Source: Candidatus Villigracilaceae bacterium
GTDB lineage: Bacteria; Chloroflexota; Anaerolineae; Anaerolineales; Villigracilaceae
Assembly (NCBI GenBank): GCA_026645935.1
Contig: JAPKMP010000013.1
Coordinates: forward strand, 62,001-126,000
Direction of reading: 5' to 3'
DNA length: 64,000 bases
Position 1 is the stretch's first letter. The number at the start of each line of letters is the position of its first letter. Shown in pieces: positions 19,074 to 58,737 of the stretch. The position numbers and the translations under genes are program-made. The notes under the pieces are model-generated. The model was not told the origin of the DNA, did not search any database, and saw only the letters and a list, made by a program, of their open reading frames with translations.

Positions 19074-21632
19074 TTACTGGTTTCGTTTTTCTTCCAATAC
19101 TTTTCTGGCAACCTCTTCAAAATGGTCATCTGTTTCGATGAGAGGAACAGTTTTCATTTCATGGGAAGATGTTTTGCCTTTGAGTTCCTCTGCAAGTTTT
19201 TCGGCACGGGCTTTGGTCTTCAACAAGGCAGAGGAATTGGCAAGGCAATAAAGTGATAACTGAAGAGCGAAGAACAGATTCCCGCGTTTCGCCTGGAGGT
19301 CTGCAATATCAACGAGCACATCCAGCGCTGTGAGCGGACCTTGCGTATCGAGCGAAAGCCGCAAGGATTCATGCCAGAGACGTTCGGCTTCAATGTCGTT
19401 TCCCAAGGCAAATTTACTTCGTCCCATCTCCGAAAGCAGACGTGCAATATCCCAGCGTGCGCCAAGTTCAGTGAAATAATCCAGGCTTTTTTGAAATGCT
19501 TCATATGCCTCGGCATGTTTTTCTTGTGCCTGCTCTAAAAGCCCTAAACTACGGTAGGCATTTCCCAACCCCATGCGGTCTCCGATCGCGGTGTTGATGG
19601 CAATGCTTTCTTCCAATGCAACATGAGCTTCATCATATTTTTGAGCATCCTTGGCGCTAAGGCTGAGGGAAGTCAACCCGAATGCGGTAAATCGTAAGTC
19701 ACCAGTCTTTCGCCATGCATCCACGGCGGCTTGAAACTGCTCGTGCATCGTTTCCGTTTTGCCAAGCAGCATATCCACGCCGACCAGTTCCGTCAGGCAG
19801 AGAGCCTCATACCAAGGGTCGTTGATACTGCGGGCGGTTTGCAATCCCGCTTCGAAGAGTCTCAATGCTTCAGCAAGATCGCCCATAATGATCTTGGTAA
19901 TGCCGAGGAAAGTCAGAGCCTCTTCCAATGTCTTTGGGTCATGGACAGACTTCAATAACTCAAGGCTTTGTTCAAGCATGAGTTGGGTTTCTTCATGTTG
20001 TGACGTTCGCAGGGCAAACAAAGAACGAGCGGTCAGTACATGTGACAGGGCTTTCTTTTCTTCATCGTTTAATGATCGATCTGCCAAGGCATCTTGAACA
20101 CGCTTGAGATAATCCAATCCTTCCTGATACCAGCCCAATGCGTCATATAACGTTGAGTAAGCACGCAAACCTGTTTCGATGAGCACAAATTCTTGATGCG
20201 CCAACGCCCATTCCAACGCAGTGCGGAGGTTGTCAATATCCGCGACAAGTTTGGCAAGCGACTCGCGCTGTGTGAAACTTCGTAATGGCAGATCTTCCTG
20301 ACTCAGGAATTTGATGAAGAATCGCCCATGAAATGCTTGCGCCTCTTCCTTGACCTTGAGCTGGTCTGTCAACCGTTCAGCCGCGTACTGTCTGATGATT
20401 TCGTGCAGATCGTAGCGCCCCGTTCCACTTCTGCGGATTAACGACTTTGCGACCAACGCCGAGAGGATGGGGAGACTCGCGCCCGCGATTTCTCCCGCTG
20501 CTTCCCGCGAGAATCCACCCTGGAAGATGGCAAGCCGAAGCAAGACGTTTTGTTCTTCTTCAGTTAGCAGCTTCCATGAATGGTCAAAGACTGCGCGAAT
20601 GGAACGGTGGCGGGTTGGCACATCCTTTGCAGAGATGGAGAGGAAATCCAGTCCGCGCTCGATCTCGCTGGCGATCTCAAGGCAGGAGAGAGTCCGCACC
20701 CAGGCGGCGGCAAGCTCGATGCCAAGCGGCATGCCGTTGACCAAGTTGCAAATGCGGACGATGGCTGGATAGTCTTCTGTCGTGGCGTCGAAGCTGACGT
20801 GGGCGCGGCGGGCGCGTTGTAGGAATAGTTCCACTGACGTGCCTTCGATATCCGTCCCTTCGGGGATGGGCAGACCCTGGGCTTCGAAGATCCATTCGCC
20901 TTGCAATCCTACCGATTCGCGCGAAGTGACCAGAAGTTTGAGGTTGGATGTTTTTTCTAATAGTTCTGCAAAGAATTCAGGGACGGTGGCATCGCTGAGG
21001 AGATGCTCGAGATTATCAACCAATAGCAGGATGTGTTTCTCTTTGAGGTAGTTGAATAACTGTTCCTTGGGCTCATGTTCTCCTTGAAGCGTAAAGCCCA
21101 TCGAATCGGCGATGACGGGGATGAGGAAACGCGAAGATTGAATCGGCGCGAGAGGGACGAAATAGGCGCCATCTTCAAAATCGGTTTGAGAACGCGAAGC
21201 GGTTTCGAGCGCGAGACGGGTCTTGCCCATGCCGCCCGTGCCTACGATGGTCAACATGCGGCAATGCGGGTCGCGGAGAAGTTTGCAGAGTTCGTCCACT
21301 TCGTGCTGCCGCCCGATGAGGGGCGTGGGCAGGATGGGGAGGTTGGTGGATAAAGTTTGGGCTGGGGGAAGGTTCGAAGGTTGAACCCGCTTCGATACGG
21401 GCGGGAGGCGGTCTGTTGTCCATTCACCGCGGGCTACTTTGGTGAAGGACTCCCGATCAGCAATTTCCAAAACATTGGCGATCAATTCAGCGATCTGGGC
21501 GGAAGGACGGCGTTCGTCGTCTTCGATCTTGCGCAGCATGGCGACCGAACAACCGACGCGACTGGCAAACTCCTCGCGCGTCAGCCTGCGTGCCGTGCGT
21601 TGTTCACGAAGCCATTCGCCAAATGTTTTCAT
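19074..21632 (-). CDS. XRE-family regulator with NB-ARC ATPase and TPR repeats
   Basis: This 852-residue STAND-type protein has an XRE helix-turn-helix (residues 4-60, LTREEFASRVGCSVAMLRKI), an NB-ARC ATPase with Walker A GTGGMGKT (131-138) and Walker B LLLVDNLEHLL, and a winged-helix region ending in YDLHEIIRQYAAERL. TPR repeats run from about residue 470 to the end. Such proteins act as ATP-switched transcription regulators that sense a ligand through the TPRs. The ATG at 21630-21632 is preferred. It has no ribosome site, but a TACAAT box lies eight bases upstream, suggesting a leaderless message. A close paralogue lies at 56152-58737. It is divergent from the cupin-hydrolase run, its likely target. 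Confidence 0.9.
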   Translation of the reverse strand: MKTFGEWLREQRTARRLTREEFASRVGCSVAMLRKIEDDERRPSAQIAELIANVLEIADRESFTKVARGEWTTDRLPPVSKRVQPSNLPPAQTLSTNLPILPTPLIGRQHEVDELCKLLRDPHCRMLTIVGTGGMGKTRLALETASRSQTDFEDGAYFVPLAPIQSSRFLIPVIADSMGFTLQGEHEPKEQLFNYLKEKHILLLVDNLEHLLSDATVPEFFAELLEKTSNLKLLVTSRESVGLQGEWIFEAQGLPIPEGTDIEGTSVELFLQRARRAHVSFDATTEDYPAIVRICNLVNGMPLGIELAAAWVRTLSCLEIASEIERGLDFLSISAKDVPTRHRSIRAVFDHSWKLLTEEEQNVLLRLAIFQGGFSREAAGEIAGASLPILSALVAKSLIRRSGTGRYDLHEIIRQYAAERLTDQLKVKEEAQAFHGRFFIKFLSQEDLPLRSFTQRESLAKLVADIDNLRTALEWALAHQEFVLIETGLRAYSTLYDALGWYQEGLDYLKRVQDALADRSLNDEEKKALSHVLTARSLFALRTSQHEETQLMLEQSLELLKSVHDPKTLEEALTFLGITKIIMGDLAEALRLFEAGLQTARSINDPWYEALCLTELVGVDMLLGKTETMHEQFQAAVDAWRKTGDLRFTAFGLTSLSLSAKDAQKYDEAHVALEESIAINTAIGDRMGLGNAYRSLGLLEQAQEKHAEAYEAFQKSLDYFTELGARWDIARLLSEMGRSKFALGNDIEAERLWHESLRLSLDTQGPLTALDVLVDIADLQAKRGNLFFALQLSLYCLANSSALLKTKARAEKLAEELKGKTSSHEMKTVPLIETDDHFEEVARKVLEEKRNQ

Positions 21633-32601: not shown

Positions 32602-35316
32602 CTAAATCAAGCCTAATTCAATTGCCTTTATTACAGCTGCTCGACGGCTATTCACATTGAGTTTGTTGTAAATGCTCTTGGTATGAGTCCGAACCGTGCT
32701 CAAAGCGATGACAAGCTCCTGTGCGATCTCGGGACCCGAAAGCTCGGTCTTGAACAGCCGCAGGATGTCCAACTCCCGCTGACTGAGCGCCTCGACCAGC
32801 GACCCCAAAACTGGTGCGGCGGAAGGAGGCGTTTCCTCCCCGAAACCTTCAAACGCCGACAACAGCCTGTCTGTATAGTCTGGCAGGATCTTGTGTGTGG
32901 CAGCTTCACGGAGCAGTCTTTCCATATCTGCGCCTTCGTCCACGAACATGCGGATATACCCTTCCGGTTCAGCCAACTTCAGGGCGCGTTCCAGCGCGGA
33001 CAGAGCAGCAGGGGCATCCTTTTGCATTTGGTGGGCATGCGCCTGCAAGATCAGGATTTCGATGGCGCTTTCCACCCTGCCGCCTTCTTCTGCTGCTTTC
33101 AAAAGGCGCTCCAGCAATCCTATTGCGTCATTCAGCGAAGGTTCTCTATGGCTGCTTTGATATTGCGACATCAATATTCTGGCGAACGTGATTTTCTCGA
33201 ACTCCCGCAAGTAGCCGGGTTCTTCCTCAACTGATAACTTCCGTTCACCCGCCCAGGCAAGCGCCTTCTCCAACTCACCCTGCTTGACCCATACCCGTGC
33301 TTTCAATGCCCTGATGGGTCGAACATTCGGGGCGAAATCACTGAGATACAGGGGCTCTGCCTCATTGAGAAGATCAAAAGCCTCTTCAAGATCGGTCTGG
33401 GCTTCACGGATTCGTGCCATCGTAACGCGCCAACGGTACGGATTTTTCGGCAACCCATTAAGTTCGCCAAGTTCCCTGCTTTTTAATAGGTGCTGTTCCG
33501 CGGCAATCAGATCGTTGCGTTCAAGATAAAGTCCGCTCATTCCGACATGCATGTCTGCCGCGCCGCGCAAAGCTGGCGTACCCTGCCTTGTCGCAAGCTG
33601 TAATCCGCGTTCGTAGATGCCCATCGCCTCCCGCAAACGACCTTGCGTAATCCTTATGTCCGCCAGAGTCAAAGAGCCGCCAATCACATCTGAGATGTAA
33701 CCAACGTTCTGCAAATGAGACATACCTTTGGCGAACATCTGATAGGCAGCCTCAAGGTCACCGCTCGTCCAGGACGCGAGCCCTACCAGTGAGGATGCCG
33801 CACCACGGGGAAAATCATCGTCCTCACGGGCAAGTTCAAGCACTTTGCTTGCATGGCTTGTGGCGTTCGTCACATCGCCTTTCGCAAGGGCAATTGCGGC
33901 ACGGTACAGATGGACTGAACTGGGCAGGCGCTGAAAATCCTCCTGATCCACGTATACAGGTTGTCCCCGAATTTCTTCAGGGGTCACGAGCCACTGTTCG
34001 ATATCCCGTAGTCGGGACTCAACACCATCAAACTGCCCATTCTGCATTAGCGTACCGACATAGTTAACATTAAGTACGGGATGATTCTGAAACAGTTTGT
34101 CGGGGAGTGCCTTAAACCAACCAAGCAAGGTGGACTCCTGCCTGCTCTGGCGCATGAATGGTATGGCTTTTTCGATCAGTTCCGCTGCGCGCTCAAAGTC
34201 CTTGGCAGATAATGAATGGCGGATCGCATCCGCTGTCAGGTTATTATTCTCAAACCACTCGCTTGCACGATAGTGCAGAGTAGGAACCAGATCAGGCTGT
34301 TCTGTGAGTAAGTGCATATGAAGCACATCGGCAAAAAGATGGTGATAGCGATACCAATCACGCTTATCATCCAATGGAATAAGGAAAAGGTTTCCCCGTT
34401 GAAGTTGTTCCAATTTGGATGCGCTTCCCGCTTGAGCAGTCACAGCATCGCAGAGGGAACCATTCAGACGTTCAAGAATGGATGTTTGCAACAGTAAGTT
34501 TCGAACGGGTTCAGGCTGACGCCGCAAAACCTCTTCAGCGAGATAATCCACAATATAGCGATGATCTCCCGCAAATGCCTGAATGAAACCATGGACATCC
34601 TGTTGTCCCTTCATCGAAAGTGCGGCAAGCTGCAGACCGGCGATCCAGCCTTCGGTGCGAGCCTCCAGTGTGGCGACTTCTTCCGCGGCAAGGTCGAGGC
34701 TCATCACCTGATTGAGAAACTCAGCGGCTTCGGATGGGGTAAAACGCAGGTCCGCGGCACGGATTTCGGTCAATTGATTTCGGGCGCGTAACCGCGGAAT
34801 GGGGACGGATGGGTCTTCGCGGGTGGTGATGACCAAATGCAATTGAGGCGGTAAATGGTCGATCAAAAAAGTGAGAGCATCATCGACCGGTCTGGCGTCC
34901 GTGAGGTGGTAGTCATCGAGAACGAGGATGAAATTATTTGAGAGGCTGGTGATCTCATTGAGTAATGCTGTTAATACTGTTTGAATGGGTGGTGATTGCG
35001 GCGATTGGAGTGCATCCAGCAATCCCGCCCCCAGATTCGGGGAAATTTTCTGCAATGCACTTATGACATAGATCAGGAAACGCACAGGGTCATTGTCGTT
35101 TTCATCCAGCGATAGCCATGCAGCCTGCTGCCCGCAATTCACAACCCAATCGCTTGCCAACGTGCTTTTTCCAAAGCCGGCAGGGGCGGAGATAAGGGTT
35201 AGTTTATGACCCGTGGTTAGTCCATCAGATAGTTGTTTAACTAATCGGGAACGGGCTACTACTTTTGGAGGAAGCAGTGGGATGAAGAACTTGGTGGCTA
35301 GAACTGAAGCAGCCAT
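32602..35316 (-). CDS. MalT-like LuxR-family ATPase regulator
   Basis: This 904-residue STAND regulator has the Walker A motif APAGFGKST (44-52) and FILVLDDYHL as Walker B. The MalT-typical RNQLTEIRAADLRF segment follows, then a long TPR-like helical region (about 400-820). A C-terminal LuxR helix-turn-helix (LSQRELDILRLFKTELSGPE through NVNSRRAAVIKAIELGLI) completes it. Such proteins are ATP- and ligand-dependent activators. The ATG at 35314-35316 has no ribosome site. TATAAT boxes lie six and eleven bases upstream, one of them extended (TGCTATAAT), suggesting a leaderless message. A decayed copy of its 5' end lies at 38667-38831. Confidence 0.93.
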   Translation of the reverse strand: MAASVLATKFFIPLLPPKVVARSRLVKQLSDGLTTGHKLTLISAPAGFGKSTLASDWVVNCGQQAAWLSLDENDNDPVRFLIYVISALQKISPNLGAGLLDALQSPQSPPIQTVLTALLNEITSLSNNFILVLDDYHLTDARPVDDALTFLIDHLPPQLHLVITTREDPSVPIPRLRARNQLTEIRAADLRFTPSEAAEFLNQVMSLDLAAEEVATLEARTEGWIAGLQLAALSMKGQQDVHGFIQAFAGDHRYIVDYLAEEVLRRQPEPVRNLLLQTSILERLNGSLCDAVTAQAGSASKLEQLQRGNLFLIPLDDKRDWYRYHHLFADVLHMHLLTEQPDLVPTLHYRASEWFENNNLTADAIRHSLSAKDFERAAELIEKAIPFMRQSRQESTLLGWFKALPDKLFQNHPVLNVNYVGTLMQNGQFDGVESRLRDIEQWLVTPEEIRGQPVYVDQEDFQRLPSSVHLYRAAIALAKGDVTNATSHASKVLELAREDDDFPRGAASSLVGLASWTSGDLEAAYQMFAKGMSHLQNVGYISDVIGGSLTLADIRITQGRLREAMGIYERGLQLATRQGTPALRGAADMHVGMSGLYLERNDLIAAEQHLLKSRELGELNGLPKNPYRWRVTMARIREAQTDLEEAFDLLNEAEPLYLSDFAPNVRPIRALKARVWVKQGELEKALAWAGERKLSVEEEPGYLREFEKITFARILMSQYQSSHREPSLNDAIGLLERLLKAAEEGGRVESAIEILILQAHAHQMQKDAPAALSALERALKLAEPEGYIRMFVDEGADMERLLREAATHKILPDYTDRLLSAFEGFGEETPPSAAPVLGSLVEALSQRELDILRLFKTELSGPEIAQELVIALSTVRTHTKSIYNKLNVNSRRAAVIKAIELGLI

Positions 35317-43624: not shown

Positions 43625-44668
43625 ATGAACCCCATGCCTCTTTTCTGGACTCTAAGCCTGCTGGCTGTTGCCCTGACTTTTATCTTCGCCTTGGGCTTTT
43701 TCACCAAACGCCGTCTCACAAAAAAATATCCACCCATCGGGCAAATGATCGATATCGGCGGCTACCGCCTGCACATGCAGGTAGAAGGCGCAGGGACGCC
43801 CACCGTCGTCTTCGACTCTGGCGCTGGGGGAATCGGTCTTCACTGGGAACTTGTCCGCCCTGCGATTGCCAAAGTGGCTCGCGTTGTCACTTACGACCGC
43901 GCCGGACTCGGCTGGAGCGACCACAGTCCCAAACCGCGCCGCGCCGATGTGATGGCGGAGGAATTACACACCTTGTTGAAGAAAGCGAACATCGAAGCTC
44001 CCTTTATTCTGGTGGGACATTCCCTTGGCGGAGTCGTTGCCCGTCAATTCGCGGCTAAATATCCGAATGAAGTGGCTGGTATGGTCATGGTGGACTCTGC
44101 GCATGAACAGCAGGTCAAACATTTCCCTGAAGCTCTGGTGAAGATGGTCAATTCGATGAAAGGCATGATGGGCGTAATGAAATTGATGGGCAGGCTCGGT
44201 ATCTTTGCGCTCAAACCAGACCTTGTCCAGATCGGCGATAACGGCAAACTCTCGAAAGTACTCGTCGCAAACATGCAGGGTGTGATGGCATCCAGCAGTA
44301 GCCATGCCGAAGCGATGATTGCTGAATCCGAAAGCGTCTTTGCGGCGGAGACTCAACCCGTTTCGGCTCTCGGAGATCTGCCACTAAACGTCATCCGTCA
44401 TGGGCAACTCGATGAGAACGCTGTACCGCCATCTCTCGGTCAGCAGGTGCGGGATGATTACGAAGCCGCGTGGCAAACCCTTCAGGCGAAGATAATGTCC
44501 CTGTCAACGCGGGGCAGGCTGATCGTCGCAGAAAGAAGCGGGCACAACATCATGTTCGAGCAGCCTGAGATCGTGATCGAATCCATTTTGGAAATGATGG
44601 GTAAAATTCAAAATGAGGAATCTTTATCCATCAGAAAAGAGGAGATGAGCCATGTTCAAGTTGGTTGA
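43625..44668 (+). CDS. Membrane-anchored alpha/beta hydrolase, paralogue
   Basis: The 347-residue protein has an N-terminal helix (residues 6-26), then PPIGQMIDIGGYRLHMQ, DRAGLGWSDHSPKPR, the nucleophile elbow GHSLGG (Ser133) and the late ERSGHNIMFEQPE with the catalytic His. It is close to the products of 22176-23171 and 45258-46295. The 3' end overlaps the next gene by 17 bases. The substrate is unknown. Confidence 0.9.
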   Translation: MNPMPLFWTLSLLAVALTFIFALGFFTKRRLTKKYPPIGQMIDIGGYRLHMQVEGAGTPTVVFDSGAGGIGLHWELVRPAIAKVARVVTYDRAGLGWSDHSPKPRRADVMAEELHTLLKKANIEAPFILVGHSLGGVVARQFAAKYPNEVAGMVMVDSAHEQQVKHFPEALVKMVNSMKGMMGVMKLMGRLGIFALKPDLVQIGDNGKLSKVLVANMQGVMASSSSHAEAMIAESESVFAAETQPVSALGDLPLNVIRHGQLDENAVPPSLGQQVRDDYEAAWQTLQAKIMSLSTRGRLIVAERSGHNIMFEQPEIVIESILEMMGKIQNEESLSIRKEEMSHVQVG

Positions 44669-45122
44669 GCCATATCAAAAACGCCCGATCCGCTTTTTGG
44701 AGTTATGGGAAAAGAATGGCTGGCGATTGAAAGTGTACAGCCTTGCTTATCAAATGCCGTTGGCGCGACCGCATGTAGTGGAGACGTCGAAGCCTATATT
44801 GTGGAAGCACCTGCAAGAGGTTGCGAAAGATAAACCTCATTACAACGTGGGTTTTATCGGAATCAACGACGGGCGCGGCGCGATCTTCTCCTTTGTGGAT
44901 TTCTGGGCGGACGAGAATGAACTTCATCATCACGTCTTTGTCTCGCTCAAAGAGGAAGTGGAAAAGCTTGAATACAAAACGCCGACGGGTCTCACCGCCT
45001 GTGTGTGGGATGCGGCGCTGCTTGCCTTTGAACGTCAGGCGTGGGTGGATACGATGTTGAACAATCCGACCGGACCCAGTCTGGAACAATATCTTTCGAC
45101 GCAGATGAATCAGGATGTTTGA
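44652..45122 (+). CDS. Conserved protein of unknown function
   Basis: The 156-residue soluble protein has the pattern NGWRLKVYSLAYQMPLARP, YNVGFIGINDGRGAIFSFVD, FWADENELHHHVFVS and TGLTACVWDAALLAFERQAW. I recognise this as a recurring bacterial hypothetical family but know no function. The acidic-His cluster DENELHHH could bind metal. GAGGAG lies before the ATG, inside the hydrolase gene, so the pair is cotranslated. A repeat copy with a terminator begins three bases after its stop. Confidence 0.8.
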   Translation: MFKLVEPYQKRPIRFLELWEKNGWRLKVYSLAYQMPLARPHVVETSKPILWKHLQEVAKDKPHYNVGFIGINDGRGAIFSFVDFWADENELHHHVFVSLKEEVEKLEYKTPTGLTACVWDAALLAFERQAWVDTMLNNPTGPSLEQYLSTQMNQDV

Positions 45123-45124
45123 CC

Positions 45125-45200
45125 TACGTCATTTGAAGGATAAAGACCGCTGTAAAAGGCGGTCTTTTGTATTAAGTGATTCGCGCCAATGCTCCGATAC
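45125..45200 (+). repeat. Terminator-carrying intergenic repeat, copy 4
   Basis: It starts TACGTCATTTG (45125-45135). GACCGC (45145-45150) pairs with GCGGTC (45159-45164), then TTTTGT. The right end (AATGCTCCGATACGC) has diverged from copies 1 to 3, so that border is approximate. Confidence 0.7.
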
Positions 45201-45257
45201 GCTTCGAAGATGAAATTTATACAATGCTCCTAATCAAATCAATAGAGGAGAATCAAA

Positions 45258-46295
45258 ATGAAAACAACTCGAACGAACAAAAAGCGTGTCTTCCATTTCT
45301 GGCTGGGAAGAATATTCCTTGTCCTTCTGGCATTGATCGTTTTGTTTGTCAGCGCAGCGCTGGCTGCCGGCGCAAAGAACAAACGTGATTTTGCCAAGAA
45401 TTATCCGCCCATTGGGCAGATGGTGGATGTGGGCGGCTATCGTTTGCACTTGTATTGCACAGGCGAATTGCAATCTGGCGAGCCGACCGTGATCGTGGAA
45501 GCAGGCTCAGGCAGCGTGGGTCTGATGTGGACATTGGTGCAGGATGAAGTAGCGAAGTCTGCCCGCATTTGTACTTATGATCGCGCCGGGCTTGGCTGGA
45601 GTGAATCCAGCCCCAAGCCACGCACTGCGGAAGTGATCACGGATGAATTGCATACCTTGCTGATCAATGCCGGAATCGAAGCTCCATACATTCTCGTTGG
45701 TCATTCGCTGGGTGGAATTTTCGTCCGCGAGTATCAGTACAAATATCCAGATGATGTCGCTGGAATCATCCTGGTCGATTCGGGAGATGGGAAACTGGCG
45801 ACCTACATGGAGGGAACGGCTTACATGCAGATGATGTACCAATTTATTGAAGCCAGCAAAACATTGACTGACACTGGACTCATCAAAGTCGTGACGGGTC
45901 TCAGTGCCTTGTTTCCATCTGAGCCGATGTATCAGACATTGCCAGCGGGAATCCCTGAAACCATTCAGGTGATGATGGTCAAAACGACCGAAGCGGGAGC
46001 CGTTGAAGTGGCTGCCTTGCCGATCATTTGGGAGGAAAACCGCGCCCATCAAACCTCCCTTGGGGATCTGCCCCTCACGGTCATTGTCCACGGGTATTGC
46101 AACAGTTGCAGCAAAAACCCCGCGGAATTGGCAAAGGAAGAGGCAGGCTGGCTGGAAATGCAGAAATATCTTGCTTCGTTATCGTCTACTAGCGAATTGA
46201 TTGTCGCAAGCCCGCAGACGGGTCACGATATTCAGGTGGATGAACCCGGCCTGGTTGTAGAGGCAATTCAAAACTTGATCGAGGCGGTGCGATAA
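45258..46295 (+). CDS. Membrane-anchored alpha/beta hydrolase, paralogue
   Basis: The 345-residue protein has a long N-terminal helix (about residues 13-38), YPPIGQMVDVGGYRLHLYC, DRAGLGWSESSPKPR, the nucleophile elbow GHSLGG (Ser150) and the late PQTGHDIQVDEPG with the His. It is most similar to the 43625 hydrolase and probably arose by local duplication. GAGGAG precedes the ATG. The pair CNSCS near residue 280 is unusual and not shared by the paralogues. Confidence 0.9.
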   Translation: MKTTRTNKKRVFHFWLGRIFLVLLALIVLFVSAALAAGAKNKRDFAKNYPPIGQMVDVGGYRLHLYCTGELQSGEPTVIVEAGSGSVGLMWTLVQDEVAKSARICTYDRAGLGWSESSPKPRTAEVITDELHTLLINAGIEAPYILVGHSLGGIFVREYQYKYPDDVAGIILVDSGDGKLATYMEGTAYMQMMYQFIEASKTLTDTGLIKVVTGLSALFPSEPMYQTLPAGIPETIQVMMVKTTEAGAVEVAALPIIWEENRAHQTSLGDLPLTVIVHGYCNSCSKNPAELAKEEAGWLEMQKYLASLSSTSELIVASPQTGHDIQVDEPGLVVEAIQNLIEAVR

Positions 46296-46731: not shown

Positions 46732-47463
46732 CTATTGAATCTCAATTATGGTGTGATCATCCACATCCGGCGCGCCGTAACTGACATCCACCATGAAGGA
46801 ACGACCATCTTCCAACATACCTTCGGCTTTGAACTGGATTAAAGGCTGCGGATTCGATTGACCGGGATGCAGCAATTCTGTGTAGGTTGCCGCTTCGCCC
46901 TTCAGCAGGGAGGGTAATACCGCGAGCTCACCGATAGTCACGACACCATCTGCCAATGCCGCCTCAATCTCCGTCTGGGCGATAAACCAAACAGGCACAG
47001 CCCCCCGCCCCATCATTTCTGCAATGAGAGGGGCAGGATCGGTTTGCGGACCATTCGCCCAATACTCGATGGAGGTGGTAGTGGGCGGAGTACAGGCAAA
47101 TGCTCCCGGACCGTCATTGCCCGGAAAATGGAAGAACTGGTTCAGGTTGAACTCGGCTGGGATGCAATCCGGGGAGCGATAGAAGACGATGACTGTCCAT
47201 TCGCCGTTGGAGAATGTCTCATTTTCGCCAAAACGGGCATAGAAGGGAACCTCTCCATTCGCCTCAATGCGAACGGGATCTTTTGCTTCGGCAGGGACGG
47301 GCGCTTTGGTTTCAACCGCAGCCGACTCGGTTGGTTGCACTTGGGTGTTATCAGAGATGGAGGAAACGATTTCCCTCGTGTTCAATATCGCGCGCACAGT
47401 GAAAATTCCCACAACGAGCAGGGCGACCACGGCTGCAACTTTCATTAAACGACTGGCGTTCAT
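46732..47463 (-). CDS. Membrane-anchored extracytoplasmic protein, function unknown
   Basis: The 243-residue protein has a single N-terminal helix (MKVAAVVALLVVGIFTVRAIL, residues 7-27) and a low-complexity Pro/Glu/Thr linker. A soluble domain starts near residue 65 (DPVRIEANGEVPFYARFGEN). Two cysteines, in SPDCIPAEF and FACTPP, could form a disulfide. I recognise no family. AAAGGAG precedes the ATG. It is divergent from the giant BTAD-STAND-WD40 gene and could share its regulation. Confidence 0.78.
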   Translation of the reverse strand: MNASRLMKVAAVVALLVVGIFTVRAILNTREIVSSISDNTQVQPTESAAVETKAPVPAEAKDPVRIEANGEVPFYARFGENETFSNGEWTVIVFYRSPDCIPAEFNLNQFFHFPGNDGPGAFACTPPTTTSIEYWANGPQTDPAPLIAEMMGRGAVPVWFIAQTEIEAALADGVVTIGELAVLPSLLKGEAATYTELLHPGQSNPQPLIQFKAEGMLEDGRSFMVDVSYGAPDVDDHTIIEIQ

Positions 47464-47649
47464 TTTATTAATCTCCTTTGATTATTTTTAAGGCGTTTTG
47501 AATTTCAATCTTGTCTTGAGGGAATATAACTTACTTCATGGGCGCCTCCAAATATCGTTATTTTGAAAACCTGCTCGAAGTGTAGAACTTGTGCGTTTTT
47601 CAAGTGTATTCAGAGCCGTTAATTTAGCATTTATCGAGAATACACATGC

Positions 47650-47658
47650 TGATATAAT
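47650..47658 (+). promoter_or_regulatory. Extended -10 promoter (TGATATAAT)
   Basis: TGATATAAT is a TGn-extended -10 box about 70 bases upstream of the giant gene's GTG start. No clear -35 element is seen, as expected for an extended -10 promoter. Confidence 0.55.
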
Positions 47659-47727
47659 GACCAAACCGACCTGATTTGACATTATTTCCTTATCATCCAC
47701 CGCTTTCAAGTCAAGAAAAGATGCCGA

Positions 47728-50700
47728 GTGCTTGAAGTCAGACTGTTAGGGCAATTTACAATTAAGTTGGATGGGGTTCCCATTCAAATAAATTCGCGTC
47801 CAGCGCAATCCCTTCTTGCGTATTTGCTTATAAACGCAGGCAGAGCAGTTCGGCGTGAGAAACTGGCGGGTTTGTTTTGGCCCGATGCCTCTGATGAAAA
47901 TGCGCGGAATAATCTCCGCCAGGCTTTGTGGCGGGTCCGGAAAAGCCTGGATGCTGATGGGACCTATGATCCATCCCTGCTTTTGGTGGATGACATTACG
48001 GTTTCGGTCAACGCCTCTTCCGAATATCGCCTGGATGTAATCGAACTGGAAACACAGATACATGAAGATACGCCGCTTCCCCGGTTGATCGAGATCGTCT
48101 CCTTGTATGAGGGCGAATTGTTGCCGGGGTTTTATGATGATTGGGTGGTTCTCGAACGTGAGAGATTGGGGGCAATATTTGAAGCGCGGATGGGGGCGCT
48201 GATAAACCGCCTGATGGAACTGCAATACTGGTCGGAAACGGTCGAATGGAGCGAGCGATGGATCTCACTGGGCGGTGTGCCCGAGCCTGCCTACCGCGGA
48301 TTGATGCTGGCGCACGCAGTTCAAGGTGATCTGAGCAAAATGGCGGCGGCGTATCATCGTTGTGAAGAAGCGATGCAGAACGAGTTGGGACTAGCGCCTT
48401 CCGACACCACTCAATCCCTTTATGAACAATTAAAGGCAGGAGGAGTGGCAAATAGCAATTTGATGAAGCGCGAAACAATTCAAAACGCTTCGCCATTCAC
48501 AGACGAGAACCCAGCGCCCGGCGCACCGCCTTATATGGGTTTACAGCACTACAATGAAACCGATGCTGATTATTTCTTTGGTCGGGAGCCATTGATCAAT
48601 TTGATTTACAGCCGCCTAACCGGGGGATATCCCTTCATTGCGGTTGTAGGCGCCTCTGGAAGCGGGAAATCATCTCTCGTCCGCGCAGGTTTGATCCCGA
48701 CCCTTAATTCGCAGGGATTCAAGAAAAAACACACCGATACTCAAGTTGATGATGGGCATGTTTGGAAAATCGTCCTCGTTAACCCAACCATGCACCCGCT
48801 TGAAGCGCTGTTAATGGGACTAAATCAACATCTGCAAACGGAGATTCGATCCGCCGATCTCAGGAAGGATGTCCATTATCTTCGCAGGCATTTGTCCGGG
48901 ATGAGGCAGGACGGGGAAAAGATGCCTTCCCAGAGCTCAGATAGACAGGGCGTTTCCAAGCTTTTAATCGTCATTGATCAATTTGAGGAACTCTTTACGT
49001 TATGTGCCGATGAACCTGAACGACGGGCATTCATTGACGTGTTAATGTCCATTGCTGATGCGGAGTTTGAAGAACATGTCCATGTGCTCATCACTTTGCG
49101 GGCGGATTTCTACTCGCACTGCGGACAGTATCCGAACCTTCGGGAGGCATTGACCCGCGCCCAGATATACATTGGACCAATGAGTGCGGAGGAGGTTCGC
49201 CGGGTGATCGAAGAGCCGGCGCGTCATGGCGGATGGGATTTCGAGCACGGTCTGGTGGAGTTGATCCTGCGCGATGTGAACCGGGAGCCCGGCATGTTAC
49301 CCCTGCTTTCACATGCCTTGTTGGAAACCTGGTGCAGACGGCAGGGACGAACACTTACTCTGCAGGGATATGTTAAGTCCGGAGGCGTACGCGGCGCAAT
49401 TGCGAGGACAGCAGAGACCGTCTTCAATCTCCAACTTTCATCCGAACAACAGCAGATCGCCAAAAACATCTTTTTGAGGCTTACTAATTTAGGAGAAGGA
49501 GTCGAGGGAACCCGCAGGCGCGTGATGTTGGCGGAGCTCATTCCCGCCGCGCGGGATGCGTCCGCCGTTCAATCGGTTTTGAACATACTGTCAGATGCCC
49601 GCCTGATCACCATTGGCGAAGATTCAGCGGAAGTCGCGCATGAGGCGTTGATCACGGAATGGCCCACGCTCCACAACTGGCTGGTCGAAGATCGGGAAGG
49701 TCTCAGGCTGCATCGTCATCTCACCGAAGCCGCGCAGGCATGGTTGGAGTCGGATCGTGATCCCAGTGAACTTTATCAAAGAACCAGGTTGGGTCAGGCA
49801 GTCGAATGGAGTGAAACGTACGCATCAGACCTGAGCTTATTGGAGCAGGAATTCCTAACCGCTTCAAGGGAACAAGCCGAACAAGTGGAGTCCGAGCGAA
49901 AGGCTCAACAGGAGCGCGAATTGCGCGCCGCCCGGGAATTGGCGAAAGCCCAGCAGGAACGAGCGGAAACTGAAAAGCAACTGTCTGAAAGTCAGACCCA
50001 TGCCTTGGCGCAATTACGACGGCGCGCCATCTACCTCACGGCTGCGCTATTCTTTGCGCTTGGCATGGCGGGCATCGCCTTGTTTCTGGGGGAGCGGGTG
50101 CGGCAGGTTGCGCTGACAGCACAAGCCAATGCTGAACGGGCGGAGGACGAACGCCGAATTGCCTTTTCGCGTGAACTAGCCGCCGCATCTGTCTCGAACT
50201 TGGGCTTGGATCCGGAACTCAGCATTTTACTCGCCCTGGCTGCTGTATCCGAGGCGCAATCGGCTGGTTTGCCTGTCCCGCGTGAGGCGGAAGAGGCGTT
50301 GCATGGATCTGTCCTGGCGTCGCGATTACGGATGACCCTGCCGGGAGGTTATGGGGTGGATTTTGATCCGAGAGGATCCTTAATCGCATCCAGTGGAGCG
50401 AACAGTTCTGTGGTCATCCGGGAATTTCCATCCGGGCAAGAGAGGCTTGTTTTACAGGGGCTTTCCGGCGATCTTTACGGTGTGGGGGTAAGTTTCAGCC
50501 CTGATGGTAGAAGGGTACTCACCGCCAGTGCGGACGGGACAGCCAAAGTTTGGGACATCCCCATGGGGAATGAGTTGTTAACACTACAGGGGCATACCGC
50601 ATCGGTCAATGCCGGGATATTCAGCACGGATGGAATACATATTGCAACAACATCCGGTGATGGAACGGTGCGGGTTTGGGACTCGAAAACGGGGGATGAA

Positions 50701-52197
50701 CTGCTCATGTTGACGCTTCCCGCTCCTTCAGGCATTGCCTTTGACTCCAAAGGAGAATATCTTGCAATTGCCAATGATCTCGAATCCAATGGCTCAGTGA
50801 CGATTTGGGACATCACATCCGGAGAAAACACACTGACATTGCCTGGTCATCCTCGTGGTTCGCTGGCTGTGGTTTATAGCAGGGATGGAATGCATATCAT
50901 TACTGCCGGACGGGATGCGAAGATTCGAGTATGGAATCTGGAAGACGGGGAGGAAACAACTGTATTGAATGAAACCATCCCAATCTATTCGCTGGCTGTG
51001 AGCCCGAATGGCAGGCAAATTGCGGCGGGCGGCATTGATGGAACTGTCAAAGTTTGGGATTTGGAAACTGCTCGTTTGCTGTTCGAGCTCACCGGGCACA
51101 CCGATGTGGTAAGTTCTCTGGCGTTCAGCCCCGATGCAAAGTATCTGGCATCCAGCAGCGTGGATGGTTCCAGCAGAGTATGGGATGTGTCGGCAAATGG
51201 AATGACCGAATGGTTGACTCTTTCAGGACACACAGAGGTGGTTTACAGCCTGAACTATAACCCCGATGGTCGAAAAATTGCCACTTCCAGTTGGGACGAA
51301 ACCGCTGTCATCTGGGATGCATTTACCGGGAATAGATTGTTTGCCTTTCAAGATTTTACAGCGGAGGTGGGGCGCATCACATTCAATGATGATGGATCGA
51401 GGATCGCTACAGCGGATTACGGCGGGGTATTAAAACTTTGGGAGGCTGATACAGGTAAATTGGTTTTTTCTGTTCCAGCGCATAGTCCGGGCGATATTGA
51501 CGCCATGTTCAGCCCGGATGGAAACTTTATCGCCACGGGCGGCGCAGATGGAACGGCAAAATTGTGGGATGTTAATACGGGTGAAATGATTCGAATGTTT
51601 GCAGGTCATACCGATGTCATTCATCGTATTTCATTCAACCCTGATGGAAGCCTGTTGGCTACAGCAAGCTGGGACGATACGGCGAAAATCTGGAAGGTAT
51701 CCTCGGGCGAAATGCTTCATACATTTTCCGCAGGAGGCGGGGATGTAAAAAGTGTTGCATTCAGCCCTGATGGACAACGCCTGACGACGGCACATGAAGA
51801 TGGGATTGCCAGAATATGGGATGTTTCAATGGTTGGAACGGAACCGCAAAACGAAGTGCGGATTGTGCAAACGTTGGTAGGGCACAACTCCACGGTTTGG
51901 GATGCTACCTTTAGCCCAGATGGTAAACGTCTGGGAACCATCAGTTTTGATGGTACTGCAAGGCTTTGGGACGCGGAATCTGGGAGTGAGTTACTGGCAT
52001 GGTCGGGCAATAATAATGGTCCAGACTTGGAATTCAGTCCGGATGGAAGACATCTGGCAGTCACCAGCGGCGATGGAAACGTGAGGGTGTTAATCCTCTC
52101 GCTCGAAGAATTAATAAGCGTGGCAAAATCCCGGCTGACTCGATCCTTTACTCTGGCAGAGTGCCAAAAATACCTGCATCGCGATTCCTGTCCGTAA
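47728..52197 (+). CDS. Membrane-anchored BTAD-STAND-WD40 regulator
   Basis: The 1489-residue protein starts with an OmpR-like winged helix (about 1-90: VRLLGQFTIKLDGVPIQ, SLLAYLLINAGRAVRREKLA) and a BTAD helical domain (about 95-245), as in SARP regulators. A STAND NTPase follows with PYMGLQHYNETDADYFFGRE, Walker A GASGSGKSS (308-316) and Walker B LLIVIDQFEE (Asp417). A charged coiled coil (about 710-762) leads to one transmembrane helix (about 767-787, preceded by RRR). Thirteen or so WD40 repeats fill residues 880 to about 1470. By the positive-inside rule the DNA-binding half is cytoplasmic and the propellers are outside. The start is GTG with a weak ribosome site. Ligand and target genes are unknown. 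Confidence 0.92.
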   Translation: MLEVRLLGQFTIKLDGVPIQINSRPAQSLLAYLLINAGRAVRREKLAGLFWPDASDENARNNLRQALWRVRKSLDADGTYDPSLLLVDDITVSVNASSEYRLDVIELETQIHEDTPLPRLIEIVSLYEGELLPGFYDDWVVLERERLGAIFEARMGALINRLMELQYWSETVEWSERWISLGGVPEPAYRGLMLAHAVQGDLSKMAAAYHRCEEAMQNELGLAPSDTTQSLYEQLKAGGVANSNLMKRETIQNASPFTDENPAPGAPPYMGLQHYNETDADYFFGREPLINLIYSRLTGGYPFIAVVGASGSGKSSLVRAGLIPTLNSQGFKKKHTDTQVDDGHVWKIVLVNPTMHPLEALLMGLNQHLQTEIRSADLRKDVHYLRRHLSGMRQDGEKMPSQSSDRQGVSKLLIVIDQFEELFTLCADEPERRAFIDVLMSIADAEFEEHVHVLITLRADFYSHCGQYPNLREALTRAQIYIGPMSAEEVRRVIEEPARHGGWDFEHGLVELILRDVNREPGMLPLLSHALLETWCRRQGRTLTLQGYVKSGGVRGAIARTAETVFNLQLSSEQQQIAKNIFLRLTNLGEGVEGTRRRVMLAELIPAARDASAVQSVLNILSDARLITIGEDSAEVAHEALITEWPTLHNWLVEDREGLRLHRHLTEAAQAWLESDRDPSELYQRTRLGQAVEWSETYASDLSLLEQEFLTASREQAEQVESERKAQQERELRAARELAKAQQERAETEKQLSESQTHALAQLRRRAIYLTAALFFALGMAGIALFLGERVRQVALTAQANAERAEDERRIAFSRELAAASVSNLGLDPELSILLALAAVSEAQSAGLPVPREAEEALHGSVLASRLRMTLPGGYGVDFDPRGSLIASSGANSSVVIREFPSGQERLVLQGLSGDLYGVGVSFSPDGRRVLTASADGTAKVWDIPMGNELLTLQGHTASVNAGIFSTDGIHIATTSGDGTVRVWDSKTGDELLMLTLPAPSGIAFDSKGEYLAIANDLESNGSVTIWDITSGENTLTLPGHPRGSLAVVYSRDGMHIITAGRDAKIRVWNLEDGEETTVLNETIPIYSLAVSPNGRQIAAGGIDGTVKVWDLETARLLFELTGHTDVVSSLAFSPDAKYLASSSVDGSSRVWDVSANGMTEWLTLSGHTEVVYSLNYNPDGRKIATSSWDETAVIWDAFTGNRLFAFQDFTAEVGRITFNDDGSRIATADYGGVLKLWEADTGKLVFSVPAHSPGDIDAMFSPDGNFIATGGADGTAKLWDVNTGEMIRMFAGHTDVIHRISFNPDGSLLATASWDDTAKIWKVSSGEMLHTFSAGGGDVKSVAFSPDGQRLTTAHEDGIARIWDVSMVGTEPQNEVRIVQTLVGHNSTVWDATFSPDGKRLGTISFDGTARLWDAESGSELLAWSGNNNGPDLEFSPDGRHLAVTSGDGNVRVLILSLEELISVAKSRLTRSFTLAECQKYLHRDSCP

Positions 52198-56151: not shown

Positions 56152-58737
56152 TTATCCCAAAACCAATGCATTGACGATTGACGCCAAAGATTCATTTGAT
56201 TTCCCCTTTCGAATCGCCTGTAATTTGTCGGCACTGAAACATCCTTCCACATCCCGCAACAATTGGCAGGCGCGGTCTTTTACATCCCGCTTCGCGGCGG
56301 GATGTTCCTTGATCAGTATAAGCCAGTCAACGATCCATTCGGGGTTGCGGCGCGCTTCGAGGGAAGCGAGACCCGCCAGGGCTTCCAGCATGAGCGGGGC
56401 GGAGTGGATGTCACGCGCGAGGCGCAGGGCGGTCAGGAATAGTTCCCTGGCCTTGGGGTGGTTGCCCGTGAGAGCAACCGTCTCGCCGAGGACGATGAGG
56501 GTTTGGGAAATGTCCCAGCCAATGATGTAGTCGCCGAAAGTTTCCAGGCTTTTATGGAGGAATGATTGGGCTTCCTCGAGTCTGCCCTGCGCCTTCGCCG
56601 CCCAGCCGAGGTGACGGTATGCAGTGCCCATCCCCCAGCGGTTATTCGACGCCTGGCATAACTCGAGACTTTCCTGCAAATACGCACGGGCTTCATCGAA
56701 ACTTCCGAGCGTGATCAGTGTGGGGATGAGGTAATTCAAGCCGAGCGCGATGGAGTGTGGATCGCCAAGCCTGCGCCAGATGGCCAAGCCTTCCATCATT
56801 TGTTCCCGCCCCCGTGTGTAATTTCCCCTAAGGCTGGCGATATAGCCGAGGTTATAGGTGGCATAGGCGGCAAACCATTCATACTTTGGATCCTGCGCGT
56901 AAGACAAGCCTTCCTTCATCAGCGCCTGCGAGCGGTCAATATCGCCGTTGAGGTGCATGATGATGCCCAGATATACGAGCGCATCCACCAGCAACCCCGT
57001 ATCGCCAAGCGGGCGGAGCAGGAGGACGCTCTCCTCCATCAAGGAAACTGCGCGTTCGTAAAGTCCCTTGCGAAAGCACAGGATGCCCTGCTGTGTGCAG
57101 GCTTCACCAAGCACGCGTTGCAGGGCGGGGGAGGCGGGTTTTGCTTTGAGCGTTCGGACGAGAGGTTCGAAATGGTCAATGCCTTCGTTAATCAGACCAC
57201 TCACCTCGAAGAACCATCCCAAACTGCGGATGGCTTTGCATCCCTTATCGAACGTTTCGCGTTGGAACATCCATGACCAAGCCGCGCGGAGGTTATCCAT
57301 CTCACCGAGGATCTCCTGGACGGCAAGACGCTGGCGCGCGCTCTTCAATGACATTTCGCGCTCCGCAGCAAAATTCAGATAATACGAACTGTGCGCGTCG
57401 CGAGTCTCGAGATATTTCTTTGATTCCTTTTCCAAATGGGTCAGTGCATATTGACGGATGACCTCATGCAGGTCATAGCGCCCGTCTTCTGTGCGCCTCA
57501 CCAGTGACTTGGAGACCAACAACGCCAAAAGGGGCAGCGTCGCGCCTGCGATCTTTTCCGCGGCAAGACGGTCGAAGCCGCCATGAAAAACGGAGAGGCG
57601 GCTCAACGTGGAGCGTTCCTCGTGCGAGAGCAATCGCCAGGAATGATCGAAGGTGGCCTTGAGCGAGCGATGGCGCTCGGGAATGTCGCGCATGGAGGTG
57701 GTCAGGAAATCGATGTTCCTCTCGATCTCCTGCGCGATCTCGCGGCAGGAGAGCACGCCCACCCATGCGGCAGCAAGTTCGAGCGCGAGCGGAATCCCTT
57801 CGACCAGATGGCAGATGCGCGCCAATGCGGTTTTGTCCGCTTCGGTCAGTTCAAATTCAGCATGGATCTGGCGGGCGCGCTGGAGGAAGAGTTCCGCCGC
57901 GCTGTAGTCCTCGAGTTTGTCGAGGAATTCGTATGGCGGGATGGGCAGGCCGTGGAGTTCATACGTCCATTCGCCGTGCAGGTTCAGGCGCTCGCGCGAG
58001 GTGCAGAGGATTTTGATGTTCGGGAAGCGTTTGAGGATCTCTGCCACCAGTTCCGCCGCGGCAGACGACTGTGCCAACAGGTGTTCGAGATTATCCAAAA
58101 CCAACAGCGTGGACTGTTTCCTCTCATGCGATATGTGATCGAACAACTGCTCCTGCGGGTCGACGGGACCTGAAAACGAGAACTCGAACGCCTCCGCAAT
58201 CGCAGGGACGATTGATTCCGCGGAATTGACCGAGGCCAGCGGGACGTAATGGACTCCACCAGGAAACTTGCTTTGCTGTCGTGAGGCGAATTCAAGCGCG
58301 AGCCGCGTCTTGCCGATACCGCCCATGCCTGTCAGAGTGAGCAGACGGCAGGGAGGTTCGTTGAAGATGCGGTCCATTGCGGCGAGTTCGGGTTCGCGGC
58401 CCAGTAACGGGGTAGGAGGCAAAGGCAGATGGTGAGGAACAGGCTTGGATGAGTCAGGGGCGGGTTTTGAGTCAGGGATGGAGACAACGCGGTCGAGTGT
58501 CAAATCCCCGCGGGCGATACGGATGAACGTCGGCCTGTCGTCTTCAGAAATTTGAAGCGCATCTGCGAGCAATGCTGCAAGTTGTTTGGAGGGGCGGCGT
58601 TCCCCCGATTCGATCTTGCGCAAGGCAAAGACGGAACAGCCAGCGCGCGTCGACAATTCCTCCTGTGTGAGGTCGAGCGCTTTGCGGCGTGATTTTAGCC
58701 AATCGCCAAATGAACCTGGAATTTCCAAGTTGCTCAT
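56152..58737 (-). CDS. XRE-family regulator with NB-ARC ATPase and TPR repeats, paralogue
   Basis: The 861-residue protein has the same design as the product of 19074-21632: XRE helix-turn-helix (residues 10-68, LTQEELSTRAGCSVFALRKI), Walker A GMGGIGKT (137-144), Walker B LLVLDNLEHLL, YDLHEVIRQYALTHL at the end of the winged region, and TPR repeats to the C-terminus. It is probably a ligand-sensing, ATP-switched regulator. AGGAAAG precedes the ATG. A TGCTACAAT promoter lies about 70 bases upstream. It is divergent from a set of small membrane and enzyme genes that may be its targets. Confidence 0.9.
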   Translation of the reverse strand: MSNLEIPGSFGDWLKSRRKALDLTQEELSTRAGCSVFALRKIESGERRPSKQLAALLADALQISEDDRPTFIRIARGDLTLDRVVSIPDSKPAPDSSKPVPHHLPLPPTPLLGREPELAAMDRIFNEPPCRLLTLTGMGGIGKTRLALEFASRQQSKFPGGVHYVPLASVNSAESIVPAIAEAFEFSFSGPVDPQEQLFDHISHERKQSTLLVLDNLEHLLAQSSAAAELVAEILKRFPNIKILCTSRERLNLHGEWTYELHGLPIPPYEFLDKLEDYSAAELFLQRARQIHAEFELTEADKTALARICHLVEGIPLALELAAAWVGVLSCREIAQEIERNIDFLTTSMRDIPERHRSLKATFDHSWRLLSHEERSTLSRLSVFHGGFDRLAAEKIAGATLPLLALLVSKSLVRRTEDGRYDLHEVIRQYALTHLEKESKKYLETRDAHSSYYLNFAAEREMSLKSARQRLAVQEILGEMDNLRAAWSWMFQRETFDKGCKAIRSLGWFFEVSGLINEGIDHFEPLVRTLKAKPASPALQRVLGEACTQQGILCFRKGLYERAVSLMEESVLLLRPLGDTGLLVDALVYLGIIMHLNGDIDRSQALMKEGLSYAQDPKYEWFAAYATYNLGYIASLRGNYTRGREQMMEGLAIWRRLGDPHSIALGLNYLIPTLITLGSFDEARAYLQESLELCQASNNRWGMGTAYRHLGWAAKAQGRLEEAQSFLHKSLETFGDYIIGWDISQTLIVLGETVALTGNHPKARELFLTALRLARDIHSAPLMLEALAGLASLEARRNPEWIVDWLILIKEHPAAKRDVKDRACQLLRDVEGCFSADKLQAIRKGKSNESLASIVNALVLG

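Follow-up and report, generated by a model that had tools for sequence, protein, structure and literature searches.

A STAND ATPase regulator with a predicted transmembrane helix and WD40 propellers, and the exported-protein gene divergent from it, in a Villigracilaceae genome

The regulator and the gene facing it

The 64,000-nucleotide stretch analysed here (the window) comes from the 4.33 Mb genome of a Candidatus Villigracilaceae bacterium and carries, between positions 46732 and 52197, a pair of divergently oriented genes. The gene on the forward strand (47728–52197) starts with GTG and encodes a protein of 1489 residues, in which a DNA-binding head with a BTAD domain is followed by an nSTAND1 ATPase, a predicted transmembrane (TM) helix and a series of WD40 repeats. 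The gene on the reverse strand (46732–47463) encodes a protein of 243 residues, predicted to be exported and membrane-anchored. The 264 bases that they share (47464–47727, no strand assigned) are presumed to contain an operator and two promoters.

The head of the regulator spans residues 1–245 (47728–48462, forward strand). Pfam profiles place a winged helix at residues 27–78 (Trans_reg_C, PF00486; 27.5 bits against a cut-off of 26.2) and a BTAD domain at residues 124–235 (PF03704; 47.7 bits against 22.1), so that an OmpR-type winged helix precedes BTAD as in BTAD/SARP-type regulators. The ATPase at residues 268–679 (48529–49764, forward strand) matches nSTAND1 (PF20703, E 7e-128) over profile positions 1–378 of 379. 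With this full-length match, a Walker A motif (GASGSGKS) at residue 308 and a Walker B-like motif (LIVIDQFEE) at residue 413, the protein falls within the nSTAND1 clade of STAND NTPases. A single hydrophobic helix follows, preceded by RRR; its best window is residues 770–788 (50035–50091, forward strand), with a mean hydropathy of 2.15. The WD40 region (PF00400, E 6.5e-103) has 11 repeats scored by Pfam, while 14 blade motifs can be counted between about residues 866 and 1460 (50323–52107, forward strand). Since their spacing is mostly 40–50 residues, two seven-bladed propellers, predicted to lie outside the cell, are likely. A structure model of residues 789–1489 has a mean local confidence (pLDDT) of 86 and a global score (pTM) of 0.58, which makes the single propellers credible and their mutual placement not. 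Its closest match in the PDB is 2ymu, a highly repetitive WD40 propeller, and Apaf-1 chains are also among the matches. The chain ends with ECQKYLHRDSCP (52159–52194, forward strand), which holds the only two Cys beyond the TM helix and possibly forms a disulfide. The order of domains given by a first-pass annotation of this DNA (winged helix, BTAD, ATPase, one helix after RRR, WD40 repeats) is thus confirmed by Pfam and hydropathy. Its figure of about 13 WD40 repeats was slightly low, and the helix that it set at residues 767–787 shifts to the hydropathy window given above.

The divergent protein opens with an N-terminal hydrophobic helix and has no match in Pfam, PADLOC or NCBIfam. Its structure model is all-beta and of middling quality (pLDDT 70, pTM 0.62), and a Foldseek search of the PDB gave nothing at E 0.001 or better (best 0.14). 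The best VIA-align hit, a DUF3237 protein (Z 4.8, 88 residues, root-mean-square deviation 4.0), is below match level. These results agree with the first-pass description of a membrane-anchored protein of unknown fold; the protein matches no known family, and a new fold is not claimed. Sequence relatives allow it to be grouped in a family of eleven loci, and the named ones come from Anaerolineales, Anaerolineae, Promineifilum and other Chloroflexi metagenome genomes. A lipobox Cys is kept at nine of these loci and is absent from the window copy and from that of L192, a locus in a second species of the genus; these two copies may remain anchored through the helix. C100 and C124 are invariant across eight aligned members of the family. 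At one locus (L069:1785–2984) a Fasciclin domain (PF02469) follows the exported protein in the same chain, and from this fusion one might guess at a binding or adhesive role at the cell surface.

Exported-protein genes beside STAND regulators

At L192 both genes are intact and form the same divergent pair, so the arrangement is more than a chance one. Between the window and L192, the STAND gene has a nonsynonymous divergence (dN) of 0.075 and a synonymous divergence (dS) of 0.519, and the divergent gene has values of 0.063 and 0.308. The divergent gene occurs in 3 of 57 genomes of the genus and is adjoined by this regulator in two of those three. On whether the two genes are conserved together the picture is thus mixed, since outside the genus the divergent gene adjoins other STAND regulators.

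Eleven distinct loci of the exported-protein family were retained: the window, L192, L040 (identical to L067), L041, L042, L072 (identical to L046), L066, L068, L069, L070 and L071. Two weak matches with stops in frame, G080 (E 7e-4) and G434 (E 2e-4), were excluded. At nine of the eleven, the nearest convincing gene on the 5′ side of the exported-protein gene is a STAND-type regulator, and these regulators are of six designs. The window and L192 carry BTAD-nSTAND1-TM-WD40 proteins. L071 and L072 carry kinase-LuxR-nSTAND1 proteins with TM helix and WD40 repeats, and L069 has one of the same kind that the contig end cuts within the ATPase. The others are MalT-LuxR (L040), XRE-ATPase-TPR (L041), BTAD-NB-ARC-TPR (L042) and ATPase-TPR-BTAD (L070). 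The two genes are divergent in six of the nine arrangements; in L041, L042 and L070 both genes share a strand, with the regulator upstream. No STAND gene is found on the 5′ side in L066 and L068. In four genomes, matches to three STAND-linked families sum to 25–50 per genome, some genes being counted repeatedly, from which we estimate that STAND genes make up about one gene in a hundred. At this density chance would hardly give nine of eleven, even with the three kinase cases taken as one.

The wider relatives of the regulator were then considered. Matches were found in 17 of 100 genomes of the bacterial family at E 1e-60 and, at class level, in 117 of 396 genomes at E 1e-100, with at most three candidates scored per genome. 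The examined set comprised 80 proteins on 77 of 78 loci, of which 60 class-wide loci were hand-picked, non-randomly, from the listed matches by rank and by room on the contig. Heads were assigned by sequence comparison, gene calls came from a small codon-use script, and export was scored by signal-helix and lipobox rules. Because the lipoprotein of L053 had initially been missed, the final count was made with a lower score threshold and a wider start search; identical gene-calling rules were applied to background and controls. Six of the 80 proteins were excluded from the neighbour counts (start or 5′ gene off the contig, or protein cut), as was L106, a second copy of L071, leaving 73 rows.

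Of the 43 relatives whose head is of the BTAD, XRE or LuxR kind, 25 have a divergent exported 5′ neighbour; of the 26 without such a head, none has (p 2e-7). This count leaves out the window, L069, L071 and L072, loci found through the exported protein or the finding itself; with them the figure is 29 of 47. By kind of head, this larger set has a divergent exported neighbour for BTAD in 6/7, XRE in 11/14, kinase-LuxR in 7/12, kinase-BTAD in 3/6, kinase-XRE in 2/7 and cyclase-BTAD in 0/1. Proteins with no DNA-binding head have none, be it those with a kinase alone (0/15), with a cyclase (0/2) or with none of these (0/9). At the same loci, the divergent neighbours of the regulators are exported in 25 of 30 cases, compared to 24 of 92 partners in other divergent pairs (p 4e-8). 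As a control, TPR-type STAND genes from four genomes have a divergent exported neighbour in 2 of 20 cases; five of these 20 have a weak hydrophobic stretch, and their DNA-binding part was not individually checked. Sequence comparison sorts the 29 partners into 14 groups, some linked only loosely. Ten of 20 scanned partners have a Pfam match; trypsin-like, NHL, PD40 and SnoaL-like types are among them, as are the solute-binding types DctP and Peripla_BP_2. A tree of the ATPase domain calls for at least 10 changes of head and 13 of the pairing; in the only four independent pairs with full support, the pairing tracks the head in one to three and goes against it in none, which by itself is not significant. 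The neighbour counts support an association of the divergent exported gene with the presence of a DNA-binding head, and suggest that the pairing of regulator and exported gene is a repeated design. The link between regulator and divergent gene proposed in the first-pass annotation is supported by these counts.

That annotation had offered the divergent protein as ligand, inhibitor or first target of the regulator. Four of the nine regulators that adjoin the family (L040, L041, L042 and L070) have no convincing TM helix, apart from one borderline window in L041. A protein located outside the membrane would not meet the sensors of these four, so that the role of target is the one that all nine arrangements allow. 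We therefore favour a target gene product over a propeller ligand; of the earlier proposals, the target fits best, since the family adjoins regulators without a convincing TM helix and the partners of other TM-bearing regulators are diverse. A role as co-sensor, ligand or inhibitor, in which the exported protein would contact the propellers outside the cell in the manner of VtrC with VtrA and the pairing would reflect a complex, seems unlikely, though worth weighing. The tight pairing of partner and regulator would fit such a complex, as would the solute-binding types among the partners (DctP in L059, Peripla_BP_2 in L134), since solute-binding proteins often serve as co-receptors. However, besides adjoining the regulators that lack a convincing TM helix, the same exported family occurs with no adjoining STAND gene (L066, L068), and the partners of different regulators are as diverse as the sequence groups indicate.

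Several neighbouring arrangements were recorded on the way. A peptidase-like lipoprotein gene follows the exported gene in L066, L068, L040 and L041; in L041 (10897–15180), and also in L040 and L068, an S41-type peptidase lipoprotein, a PDZ histidine kinase and a LuxR response regulator come after the exported gene (Pfam was run for L041 only). In the window's own genome, an XRE-STAND gene (L178:2560–6107) is divergent from a lipoprotein gene, SnoaL-like by eye, much as in XRE-headed members with a TM helix. L052, L061 and L062 encode headless nSTAND1-TM-TPR proteins with a gene for 127–128 residues just upstream and a lipoprotein gene downstream, which looks like a conserved three-gene cassette. 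The STAND-TM proteins of L109 and L120 have an N-terminal GTVTFLFTDIEGS-like stretch, possibly the one known from class III nucleotide cyclases. Further STAND-TPR regulator genes lie in the window at about 19485–21305, 32896–33915 and 56152–58737, the last being XRE-NB-ARC-TPR. Finally, at 43625–46295 of the window two similar alpha/beta hydrolases with N-terminal hydrophobic stretches flank a protein of 156 residues that has no Pfam match, and this order is kept in L192.

Membrane topology of the regulator

A hydrophobic helix is present beyond residue 350 in 78 of the 80 relatives, the remaining two proteins being cut short. The net charge of its flanks is higher on the N-terminal side in 67 of these 78, lower in five and equal in six. 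Among the 71 complete proteins, the number of Cys after the helix is even in 55, compared to 30 for the number before it (Fisher p 3e-5), and 42 end in a C-terminal Cys pair. Three relatives (L057, L063 and L065) have a Bmp substrate-binding domain (PF02608, E 8e-37 to 4e-46) beyond the propeller, at the predicted outer end; domains of this type are familiar from the outside of the membrane. In L192 the TM helix is identical to that of the window at 24 of 24 positions, and the propellers are 82% identical. The conservation of the helix, the charges, the paired Cys and the Bmp fusions agree, and they support a topology in which the head and the ATPase are cytoplasmic and the propellers lie outside. 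The outside-to-DNA device in one protein that the first-pass annotation had proposed draws its support from the same four lines. The predicted layout, with the winged helix inside, one TM helix and the sensor outside, agrees with that of ToxR and CadC. The proteins of L057, L063 and L065 are XRE-headed STAND-TM-WD40 proteins that end in the Bmp domain, and small lipoproteins are encoded nearby.

It is improbable that the helix serves only for membrane attachment or lies buried, with the propellers in the cytosol. Apaf-1, the known WD40-STAND protein, is cytosolic; the N terminus of the regulator has no signal peptide, and hydropathy alone is a weak predictor. The charge asymmetry, the Cys pairing and the Bmp fusions nevertheless argue for propellers outside the membrane.

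Candidate operators and a model of regulation

The shared region contains a direct repeat of AAGTGTA (47578–47608, forward strand) with copies 24 bases apart, kept in L192. It is a weak candidate for the binding site of the head, and short two-copy repeats frequently arise by chance. In the 5′ regions of 12 kinase-LuxR genes, nine-letter words reach 10 of 12 regions compared to a maximum of seven in shuffles. In a clade of XRE-headed relatives (L055, L056, L103, L104, L105, L107 and L108), a direct repeat TTGMCAAWWYTTGMCAAAATTCCCC occurs in all seven 5′ regions, precedes a TATACT-like box and reads towards the STAND gene, with little else conserved. We regard this repeat as a candidate operator. 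An exported divergent partner accompanies five of the seven, and L107 and L108 are nearly identical, so that the repeat carries less independent weight than seven cases would.

A second element lies closer to the exported gene. On the reverse strand, GGAGGCGCCCATGAAGTAA (47531–47549) is common to five other loci of the exported family and is a possible two-codon minigene. Written as GGAGGYGCCYATGNNNTAA, the element is found ahead of the exported gene at six of the eleven loci (window, L192, L041, L042, L066 and L068), with its stop 53–68 bases before the start of that gene. The middle codon varies: AAG in the window and L192, GAG in L041, TCT in L042, TTC in L066 and CTC in L068. A pattern built from five copies gave six matches in 152 family genomes, all of them before the exported gene, compared to one for the reversed control; an exact word of 16 letters is common to the window and L042, where 300 shuffles gave at most 12 letters. 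The element was not seen in L069–L072 and is lost in L040. A loose form (GGAGG-N4-7-ATG-NNN-stop) has 24 matches in 1.84 Mb of partly overlapping loci and is thus not rare; specificity belongs to the longer element alone. One possible reading of it is a Shine-Dalgarno sequence followed by a two-codon minigene, such as is reportedly found in the axe-txe operon (PMC8708949); another is a binding site whose three spacer bases are free to vary. The element stays with the exported gene beside three kinds of STAND regulator and beside none.

Given the DNA-binding head, the STAND ATPase, the TM helix, the propellers and the divergent exported gene, all recognised from sequence, we read the regulator as a one-component system. 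On balance we hold it rather likely that it is a transmembrane regulator with an Apaf-1-like ATPase and propellers, working by ToxR/CadC-like logic and controlling the divergent gene. A ligand outside would bind the WD40 propellers, and the resulting change would pass through the TM helix. The STAND domain would then swap ADP for ATP and assemble, nucleotide exchange and assembly being general STAND behaviour. The clustered heads would bind the 264-base region and switch on the divergent gene, perhaps the regulator's own gene too, and the exported protein would be the output rather than the ligand. More tentatively, and with the odds slightly against it, the relatives may form a class in Anaerolineae-type Chloroflexota: membrane-spanning STAND ATPases with exchangeable heads inside (BTAD, XRE, kinase-LuxR) and exchangeable sensors outside (WD40, WD40 with Bmp), each dedicated to an exported gene across its own promoter. 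STAND assembly would in this class take place on promoter DNA at the membrane, in response to an outside signal.

Several observations weigh against this model of regulation. No divergent exported neighbour is found for 18 of the 43 head-bearing relatives, and the kinase-XRE kind has one in only two of seven. The four independent pairs are the only fully supported ones on the ATPase tree, a comparison that is not significant and is low in power. Export and gene calls rest on simple scripts. The Cys count after the helix is odd in 16 of the 71 complete proteins. The region around the locus is richer in STAND genes than average, which weakens the density argument for the window alone. The 5′ regions of eight BTAD-headed genes have no common operator word above shuffles. 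Lastly, the shared region differs from that of L192 at 17 of 263 positions (Jukes-Cantor distance 0.068), within the range of seven other non-coding stretches (0.055–0.179, one of them lower), and its conservation was therefore not used as evidence.

A device for defence or cell death that senses phage or rivals, a role to which the first-pass annotation had pointed, is very improbable and finds no support here: nSTAND1 is named in conflict systems (PMC8195603; PMC10907252), but no defence STAND model of PADLOC matches the ATPase strongly, its HEAT-ARM_XIII match is confined to WD40 repeats (residues 1065–1198, E 2e-23), the sole matches touching the ATPase are marginal (mad3, E 5e-4; mad8, E 5e-3), nine neighbouring proteins give only helix-turn-helix- and TPR-type cross-matches, the protein has a DNA-binding head and no effector domain seen by Pfam, and a single scan of viral contigs turned up nothing related to the divergent protein.

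The one-component model can be set beside several known systems. Like ToxR and CadC, the regulator would have a cytoplasmic winged-helix head, one TM helix and an outside sensor, all in the predicted layout. It differs in that a STAND ATPase of about 400 residues stands between head and helix, a BTAD domain comes after the winged helix and two WD40 propellers would serve as the sensor. With nSTAND1 (residues 268–679) between head and helix, it is not a strict ToxR/CadC protein, in which no ATPase separates the head from the TM helix. On its outer side CadC carries a regulatory disulfide (PMC3096576). The regulator shares with Apaf-1 and other STAND-WD40 proteins a STAND ATPase followed by two WD40 propellers; here, however, a TM helix separates the two and the ATPase is of the nSTAND1 type. 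Apaf-1 is cytosolic and has a CARD in place of the DNA-binding head. AfsR/SARP and MalT-type regulators likewise join a DNA-binding head or tail to a STAND ATPase, and such relatives adjoin the same exported family (L040, L042), but their sensors are TPR and they have no convincing TM helix. BTAD/SARP-type regulators bind direct repeats at their promoters; the locus offers the short AAGTGTA repeat as a weak candidate. VtrA/VtrC also joins a membrane regulator to a neighbouring gene for an exported protein, but there the two genes partly overlap and the partner belongs to the receptor (PMC9214523). Here, in contrast, the genes are divergent and 264 bases apart, and the partners of different regulators differ in sequence. 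As to a lipocalin-like partner such as that of VtrA/VtrC, the model of the divergent protein is all-beta but middling, with no clear PDB match.

The domain families are known. Neither the combination of head, STAND ATPase, TM helix and WD40 repeats nor the rule that a head means a divergent exported gene was described in the open-licence literature searched, in which subscription papers and preprints have limited coverage.

Most of what is known of STAND ATPases concerns cytosolic switches that govern immunity, cell death and transcription, and their assembly is known from apoptosomes and immune receptors. Here a STAND switch seems to sense the cell exterior and act on DNA within a single chain. 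Domain-swap tests suggest themselves from the shuffling of heads and sensors, and the link between head and divergent exported gene gives dozens of orphan regulators a first testable target each.

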